DNA of 46,062 bases from Candidatus Woesearchaeota archaeon (GTDB taxonomy: Archaea > Nanobdellota > Nanobdellia > Woesearchaeales > GW2011-AR9), in assembly GCA_016179955.1 (NCBI GenBank), contig JACPCD010000016.1, positions 24,206 through 70,267 of the forward strand. The letters run 5' to 3'. Each line of letters starts with the position of its first letter. Positions within the stretch are counted from its first letter, which is position 1. A model generated the notes under the pieces. It did not search any database. It saw nothing but the letters and a program-made list of their open reading frames with translations, and was not told the DNA's origin. Position numbers and translations under genes: made by a program. Below are positions 29,172 through 29,866 of this stretch, one piece after another.

Positions 29172-29387
29172 ATGAGCGAATCCATATCCATCAGCCAAAT
29201 TTATGAGGAACTGAAAAGAATTGAAAAGACAATGGCGACAAAAGAAGACGTACATACCCTTCTCGATTCTCTGGAAATAGCAACTAACCCGGCGACGATG
29301 AAACAAATAATGGAAAGCAAAGAAGACATTAAGAGAGGTCGGGTAAAAAAGATTACCTCTGCCAAAGAGTTGCTTGAAGAGATGTAA
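29172..29387 (+). CDS. RelB-like antitoxin (71 aa)
   Basis: Short helical protein, SISQIYEELKRIEKTMATKE at the start and VKKITSAKELLEEM at the end, the typical small antitoxin that masks a RelE toxin. It ends one nucleotide before the toxin ATG. TATA (GATTTATATAC, 29137-29147) lies ~30 nt upstream. Antitoxin identity rests on size, helicity and coupling to the toxin. Confidence 0.7.
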   Translation: MSESISISQIYEELKRIEKTMATKEDVHTLLDSLEIATNPATMKQIMESKEDIKRGRVKKITSAKELLEEM

Positions 29388-29388
29388 G

Positions 29389-29658
29389 ATGGTTCCGTGG
29401 AGCATACAACGAACCGATACTTTTCTGAAATATCTTCAAAAGCACAAAAATAATCATCAATTGCTTCAAGAGTTAGAGAGCAAAATAAAGCGGCTTCAGG
29501 AAGAACCATTAAGCATAGGGGGAATACTTTCCGGAAAGTTGCATGGGATTCGTTCTACCCGCGTAGCAGGAAAATTCCGGCTTCTGTTCCAAATCGACGA
29601 GAAAGAACAGATAGTATATTTAATAGCCCTGGATCATAGGGGAGAGGTATATGAATAA
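29389..29658 (+). CDS. RelE/ParE-family toxin (mRNA interferase-like)
   Basis: 89 residues with the RelE fold pattern: basic helical start (DTFLKYLQKHKNNHQLLQEL), a GGILSGKLHGIRSTRVAGKF segment carrying Arg/Lys catalytic candidates, RLLFQIDEKEQIVYLIALDH strands. ATG at 29389 is preferred over an in-frame start at 29374, which lies inside the antitoxin. Likely cleaves ribosome-bound mRNA under stress. Confidence 0.8.
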   Translation: MVPWSIQRTDTFLKYLQKHKNNHQLLQELESKIKRLQEEPLSIGGILSGKLHGIRSTRVAGKFRLLFQIDEKEQIVYLIALDHRGEVYE

Positions 29659-29677
29659 AAAACGCCCCAGGCCAGAT

Positions 29678-29762
29678 TTCCGTTCTCCACATAAAGGCCA
29701 AACTCCCATTTTGGGGTTGATAAAGCCACTTGAGGGTTGATAAGGGGCAAAGCCGCTTATTC
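29678..29762 (-). other. T-loop intron of tRNA-Asn (85 nt)
   Basis: Inserted between TTCGA and AT of the T-loop (about 58/59). It contains two near-identical 12-mers GGGTTGATAA(A/G)G on the plus strand (29714-29725 and 29734-29745). A perfect bulge-helix-bulge could not be drawn by eye, so exact splice points may differ by 1-2 nt. Confidence 0.65.
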
Positions 29763-29783
29763 TCGAACTGGCAACCGCGCGGT

Positions 29784-29796
29784 CTCCATCAGAGGT
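29784..29796 (-). other. Anticodon-loop intron of tRNA-Asn (13 nt)
   Basis: ACCTCTGATGGAG between positions 37 and 38, the canonical archaeal tRNA intron site; a small CTC/GAG hairpin could form inside. Confidence 0.7.
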
Positions 29797-29857
29797 TAAC
29801 AGCCGCGTGCTCCGCCATTAAGCTACTGGGGCGTATTCTTGACTTTGAATCAAATTA

Positions 29858-29866
29858 TTTATAAAC
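29858..29866. promoter_or_regulatory. Shared TATA box for tRNA-Asn and phosphoesterase
   Basis: TTTATAAAC is ~30 nt from the tRNA 5' end (minus strand) and 27 nt from the ATG at 29889 (plus strand). One near-symmetric box appears to serve both. Confidence 0.55.

Follow-up and report, generated by a model that had tools for sequence, protein, structure and literature searches.

The window analysed here, a 46,062-nt stretch of contig JACPCD010000016.1 from a Candidatus Woesearchaeota archaeon (assembly GCA_016179955.1, referred to as G000; the other G and L labels denote related genomes and fetched loci), carries on its minus strand, at 29832-29663, a tRNA-Asn(GUU) gene of 170 nt that is interrupted by two putative introns. 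Read directly from the sequence, excision of 13 nt at the canonical position 37/38 and of 85 nt within the T-loop leaves a complete 72-nt tRNA-Asn(GUU), GCCCCAGTAGCTTAATGGCGGAGCACGCGGCTGTTAACCGCGCGGTTGCCAGTTCGAGTCTGGCCTGGGGCG, with anticodon GTT and fully paired acceptor (7/7), D (4/4), anticodon (5/5), and T (5/5) stems; the predicted spliced T-loop junction joins TTCGAG to TCTGGCCTGGGGC (Table 1). ARAGORN calls no tRNA in the unspliced window; deletion of the T-loop insert is enough for it to report tRNA-Asn(gtt) with an intron of 13 nt, and deletion of both inserts likewise yields a tRNA-Asn(gtt) call. The locus does not reach the tRNA model of Rfam, even at a permissive threshold, and minimum free energy folding of the full precursor gives no useful signal (z -0.33). 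An original prediction, made from the letters alone, had proposed this two-intron gene and its 72-nt product and had cautioned that gene finders may miss it, and both points are borne out.

Table 1. Features of the two-intron tRNA-Asn(GUU) gene, in window coordinates
Feature	Position	Strand	Sequence detail or evidence
Exon 1, tRNA-Asn positions 1-37	29797..29832	-	Acceptor GCCCCAG; D-arm GCTT-AATGGCG-GAGC; anticodon stem CGCGG; loop CTGTTA; anticodon GTT
Canonical 37/38 intron, 13 nt, ACCTCTGATGGAG	29784..29796	-	BHB pairing; ARAGORN i(38,13)
Exon 2, positions 38-59 (A CCGCG CGGTT GCCAG TTCGAG)	29762..29783	-	
T-loop intron at 59/60, 85 nt	29677..29761	-	BHB pairing; ARAGORN call requires its removal
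Hairpin core of the repeat/intron family, ATAAGCGGCTTTGCCCCTTAT+CAACCC	29734..29760	-	Genome pattern search; hairpin covariation
CGGA, intron strand of the T-loop BHB central helix	29679..29682	-	Pairs with TTCG at 29767-29764
Exon 3, positions 60-73 (T CTGGC CTGGGGC G)	29663..29676	-	
T-rich 3' trailer, possible terminator	29656..29662	-	Direct reading; inference
TATA-box-like TTTATAAATA, ~30 nt upstream of G1	29857..29866	-	Direct reading

The cleavage sites of archaeal tRNA introns lie in a bulge-helix-bulge (BHB) motif, in which 4 bp are flanked by two 3-nt bulges (PMC4090602). The original prediction had named the lack of any BHB-like structure as a point against the T-loop intron, and such a structure is present at both tRNA-Asn junctions, each with a 4-bp central helix between two 3-nt bulges at the splice sites. 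At 37/38, the loop sequence CTGT pairs with intron ATGG (4/4, with two wobble pairs). In the T-loop, the helix is formed by TTCG (bases 54-57) and CGGA, close to the 3' end of the intron (4/4, with one wobble pair), the bulges are AG/A and AA/T (the slash marking the splice site), and the outer helix is the T-stem. The length and coordinates first given for the T-loop intron stand, but its boundary, originally set between TTCGA and AT (58/59), shifts by one base. The 58/59 and 59/60 placements give introns of equal length and each yields a called tRNA-Asn. In sister genes of the same genome, the base after TTCRA is A, C, G, or T and U60 is constant; position 59 is variable in tRNAs. Therefore, BHB geometry together with the bases at the sister introns rules out 58/59 and places the intron at 59/60 (TTCGAG, intron, T), a position already among those listed for archaeal introns (PMC4090602).

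The genome was examined by targeted searches and in selected stretches. When the tRNA-Asn gene was compared with its own genome by BLAST, the start of the T-loop intron matched many other places, most of which have GGTTCRAN before the match and a T-stem and acceptor half after it. At least 18 tRNA genes of this genome carry a 59/60 intron: Asn(GTT), Ala(CGC), Ala(TGC), Ala(GGC), Met(CAT), Val(GAC), Arg(CCT), Arg(TCG), Arg(TCT), Gly(GCC), Cys(GCA), Ile(GAT), His(GTG), Thr(TGT), Thr(GGT), Leu(CAG), and two whose isotype is uncertain, one on C30 and one spanning the C37/C38 contig break, with the isotypes of multi-intron genes assigned partly by eye. The proposed tRNA-Asn with a canonical and a T-loop intron holds, refined in that it is one of at least 18 such genes, most with introns from one repeat family. 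A 37/38 intron is also present in many of these genes, and in some the D-arm holds a third; the acceptor and T stems are intact in 18/18. Unspliced, none of the 18 is found by ARAGORN; 14 are called once the 59/60 intron is removed, a few of them with an unexpected isotype or place, presumably due to other introns still present. Only 12 tRNAs of this genome exceed the RF00005 cut-off. A finder without T-loop intron models misses all 18 genes, and the tRNA counts and tRNA-based quality scores of such DPANN genomes may therefore be too low. Separately, the assembly breaks within a copy of the T-loop intron, with one tRNA gene split over the end of C37 and the start of C38 (L059, L060), and other DPANN assemblies may likewise be interrupted at tRNA genes by the repeat.

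The pairing seen at tRNA-Asn recurs in its sister introns. A set of 15 same-genome 59/60 introns was chosen without reference to a 3' splice motif; Thr(TGT), the C30 gene, and Leu(CAG) were left out, since they had been found only by YGRARR 3'-motif patterns and their inclusion would be circular. The 4/4 central helix is present in 14 of the 15, where 0.24 are expected from other 4-mers of those introns (P<=1e-5). Additionally, exon base 57 covaries with its intron partner, such that TTCG occurs with CGAA, TGAA, or CGGA, and TTCA with TGAA. Such pairing and covariation would not be expected of a disrupted pseudogene and appear to indicate selection for splicing. The predicted production of tRNA-Asn by removal of two BHB introns is well supported.

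Fourteen of the 18 introns start with a shared module, NATAAG-hairpin-CTTATCAACCC, despite their hosts being different tRNAs; among them, the Thr(TGT) intron has it in the variant form AGTAAG..CTTACCAACCC. Across 14 tRNAs, mean identity is 78% over the first 34 nt of the intron and 34% in the adjacent upstream sequence. The hairpin is paired in 95% of cells, with 11 two-sided changes and a covariation score of 0.171 (0.031 when shuffled). A pattern for the core module has 22 matches in this genome and 64 in 19/96 genomes, and a strict core pattern allowing up to 3 mismatches finds 17 places in this genome; reversed controls gave 0 in both searches. The core is not confined to position 59/60. 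In the initiator tRNA-Met (L162:150-440, on C33), the same hairpin core makes up a 40-nt intron at 37/38, whose 3' end TGAG fits the CTCA loop, and a 32-nt intron lies at 53/54; ARAGORN reports nothing for the unspliced gene and tRNA-Met(cat) after both are removed. The tRNA-Asn intron itself appears composite, with a second, partial core copy (AAGTGGCTTTATCAACCCC).

The core is also found between genes and, in antisense orientation, beside tRNA 3'-end duplicates that follow intact tRNAs or ones with introns. Three antisense copies follow tRNA-Leu on C18 and one lies on C42 (Leu); in relatives, three follow a Pro-like tRNA of G002 and one follows an intact tRNA-Asn in each of G027 and G005. 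Intact tRNAs are followed by 1-4 tandem units of ~65-120 bp, each composed of a tRNA 3' end, a trailer, and the antisense hairpin element. In clear arrays the units measure 65-82 bp, and arrays occur in several genera (L035:1-330, L038:400-620, L039:480-720, L157:290-500, and L131). In type II tRNAs the duplicated part begins in the variable arm (GCAC/CGCG-CATAAG). The antisense copies of the Leu array end in CTGAAAA, as does the Arg(CCT) intron, and therefore full intron units are present in the array. Next to Ala(CGC), a sense copy is followed by a degenerate duplicate of the 3' exon. In sense copies the hairpin abuts TTCRAN, whereas antisense and intergenic copies are without this flank, as judged against IS200/IS605-type palindromic elements (PATE/REP), whose hallmarks are a subterminal hairpin, a one-sided fixed target, and the absence of target duplication. 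A CRISPR-like array was considered for the 65-82 bp tandem copies and rejected, as the repeated unit includes the 3' ends of tRNAs and unique spacers are lacking. A group I intron or other known RNA family was similarly rejected, since the intron is 85 nt, a group I intron has a catalytic core and exceeds 200 nt, and there is no Rfam match.

The genome has the genes that splicing of these introns would call for. A single endA gene (L071:1336-2040, minus strand) encodes both an N- and a C-terminal domain; among PDB structures, its product most resembles 5x89 and the alpha subunit of N. equitans (3iey_A). An rtcB ligase gene is present as well. One clear EndA gene (PF01974) is likewise present in nearly all of 40 relatives, and a beta subunit is therefore either absent or too divergent to see. 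The rtcB gene is itself broken by 30 nt with an in-frame TAA (L184:1567-1596; C23:38759-38788), which lie inside a conserved motif, CMPDGH/FVGE(stop)SQRDQ/WGYGFPIGG, that is restored by their exact removal. The ends of this insert match a BHB, with four Watson-Crick pairs (GGTC/GACC), bulges AT/T and AG/T, and an inner helix TCGTT/AACGA, so that it looks like a pre-mRNA intron in the very ligase required for its splicing; no report of an rtcB intron was found in the literature searched.

Among relatives, a strict pattern (TTCGA only, 36-66 nt) found 48 candidate 59/60 introns in 28/96 genomes, with 9 in the reversed control, and 28/30 fetched loci refit as tRNAs with T-stem 5/5 and acceptor 7/7. 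In a sample of the phylum, matches occur in 23/104 genomes of the order and 2/44 of other orders. The 59/60 intron sequences across the order belong to different lineage-specific families. tRNA-Asn lacks the T-loop intron in G007, G027, G005, L117, and L124, and in G036 and G044 it has unrelated introns at the same T-loop site. The tRNA-Asn T-loop intron thus shows turnover among relatives, whether by gain or by loss, as far as these gene comparisons indicate. A 59/60 intron in a genome from another order of the class (G105:C46:296-348, L178) has the same hairpin design (ATAAGGAT..ATCCTTATCAACC) with both stem sides changed. Elsewhere, a Woesearchaeota tRNA-Asn-like gene with a D-loop insert (L123:1270-1450) apparently lacks the segment from anticodon loop to T-loop, reading CTGT and then CTATTTGG..TGAAAG/T CTGAC; it may be a split or permuted gene, a deletion, or a misassembly. 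Upstream of tRNA-Asn in G007, L117, and L124 lies TTTATAAATCAATTG, which is similar to the TATA-like element of Table 1. At the locus itself, an overlapping pair of small open reading frames (29172-29658, +) converges on tRNA-Asn; the second encodes a ParE-family toxin (PF05016), and the first, without a Pfam hit, is likely its antitoxin. A neighbouring metallophosphoesterase has named relatives that are mostly metagenome-assembled genomes of Woesearchaeota/Nanoarchaeota, in agreement with the earlier description of a DPANN-like genome.

Overall, it is very probable that this locus holds a working tRNA-Asn(GUU) gene, apparently present in one copy, with two BHB introns, and that its T-loop intron is one member of a family that has spread. 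During splicing, EndA would cut the bulges flanking the 4-bp helix formed by T-loop bases 54-57 with the intron 3' end, and RtcB would ligate the exons. Very similar introns would have spread among many tRNAs of the lineage as the repeat entered tRNA T-loops. Copies of the core that lie outside introns, whether in intergenic sites or following tRNA 3' ends, suggest that the gain took place at the DNA level via a small mobile repeat. The gene structure, the BHB pairing and covariation, the family of copies, and the endA and rtcB genes are seen in the sequence itself, whereas splicing in the cell, mobility of the DNA, and the order of events are inferred from it. The repeat may persist in T-loops because its 3' end, complementary to TTCR, makes it removable. 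By analogy, the T-loop intron is best read as the product of a burst of intron transposition as in Thermoproteales, linked here to a mobile-looking repeat. A broader and more tentative proposal is that Woesearchaeota-type archaea harbour a palindromic mobile element, devoid of genes, that targets tRNA T-loops and acts as an intron-transposon, whose sense copies, with a 3' end that pairs with the conserved TTCR, are spliced by EndA and RtcB and tolerated, whose antisense copies survive only beside duplicated 3' ends, and which serves as a DNA-level vehicle of archaeal tRNA intron gain. As a conjecture, the palindromic TTCGAA, which gives a similar site on either strand, could account for both sense and antisense copies.

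Several observations weigh against this interpretation. The Ala(GGC) 59/60 intron has a central helix of only 3/4, and the T-loop introns, while showing the full 4-bp helix and 3-nt bulges, have a weak or absent inner helix h'. The single PF01974 gene in this genome and in nearly all relatives suggests a homo-oligomeric enzyme, a type for which activity restricted to canonical BHBs has been described (PMC4033280). No transposase or integrase is linked to the repeat, and carriage of the core by viruses was rejected, as two strict core patterns had 0 matches in IMG/VR viral contigs.

Among other explanations, the least probable by far is that a palindromic repeat resembling a miniature inverted-repeat transposable element inserted into the T-loop and destroyed the gene, leaving a pseudogene that is not spliced. 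The insert does hold a dispersed repeat also present outside tRNAs, and the composite appearance of the Asn intron would fit such an origin, but BHB pairing and covariation in nearly all copies strongly disfavour it, and the acceptor and T stems of all 18 genes are intact. It would also require at least 14 isoacceptors, including Asn, Cys, Ile, and elongator Met, to have been lost together. The original prediction had regarded a second intact tRNA-Asn, together with an absence of spliced reads, as the sign of a disrupted gene; no second gene was found in the available assembly, which is ~81% complete, so that a further copy may lie in the missing part. An unlikely but more credible source is vertical inheritance of ancient 59/60 introns, with similarity within the genome due to gene conversion or to functional constraint on the hairpin and not to mobility. 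Their occurrence across the order and in genomes of other orders, and the hairpin of like design in another order, would be consistent with vertical descent; orthologous tRNA-Asn genes, however, differ in intron presence and have unrelated intron sequences, and copies of the core are also found in a 37/38 intron, in intergenic sites, and, in antisense, next to tRNA 3' ends.

Somewhat less doubtful is the possibility that the repeat is the footprint of an integrative element that targeted tRNA 3' ends and had tRNA-derived attachment (att) repeats, with recombination leaving element sequence between the T-loop and the 3' exon, the model put forward for Caldiarchaeum. Integration has been put forward as a source of tRNA introns (Sugahara et al. 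2012, PMC3293823), and the succession of an intact tRNA and its tandem units on C18 and C42 and in G002, G027, and G005 is what such an element might leave. In contrast, the units are very short, no integrase was identified (none was searched for), and the element is oriented oppositely in T-loop introns and in arrays; thus simple deletion does not convert an array copy into an intron or vice versa.

Archaeal tRNA intron gain has been argued mainly from hyperthermophilic Thermoproteales, for which no vehicle has been identified. In the present DPANN lineage, a single intron family appears to have expanded recently at one tRNA position, and there are candidate intermediates in which the same core lies within a 37/38 intron, in intergenic sites, or in antisense next to duplicated tRNA 3' ends. 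With these intermediates and with relatives that lack the intron, the vehicle becomes testable. No paper was found that joins tRNA, intron, T-loop, and DPANN, which is weak evidence of novelty as subscription papers were largely outside the search; the only paper found on Woesearchaeota and tRNA introns concerns group I introns.

The 59/60 BHB introns already listed for archaea (Yoshihisa 2014, PMC4090602) have the same position and BHB architecture and often accompany a 37/38 intron. Here, they differ in occurring in a Woesearchaeota-type DPANN genome, in at least 18 genes, and mostly with one hairpin repeat. Transposed introns of Thermoproteales (Fujishima 2010, as cited in PMC4090602 and PMC4033280) are similar in that near-identical introns occupy different isoacceptors and more than one position, in genes with up to three introns, and highly similar introns in different isotypes are likewise found here. 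In contrast, the present case is in a different phylum, and its core also occurs outside introns, in intergenic sites and antisense with duplicated tRNA 3' ends, a placement for which no description in Thermoproteales was found in the literature examined. The intron gain described for Caldiarchaeum tRNA-Thr (Sugahara et al. 2012, PMC3293823) similarly links duplicated tRNA fragments, a repeat, and intron gain, but whereas that case involves one tRNA, a 1.8-kb recombinase-encoding element, and duplication of a 5' end, the present one involves many tRNAs, a gene-less repeat of ~50-80 bp, and duplications of 3' ends.
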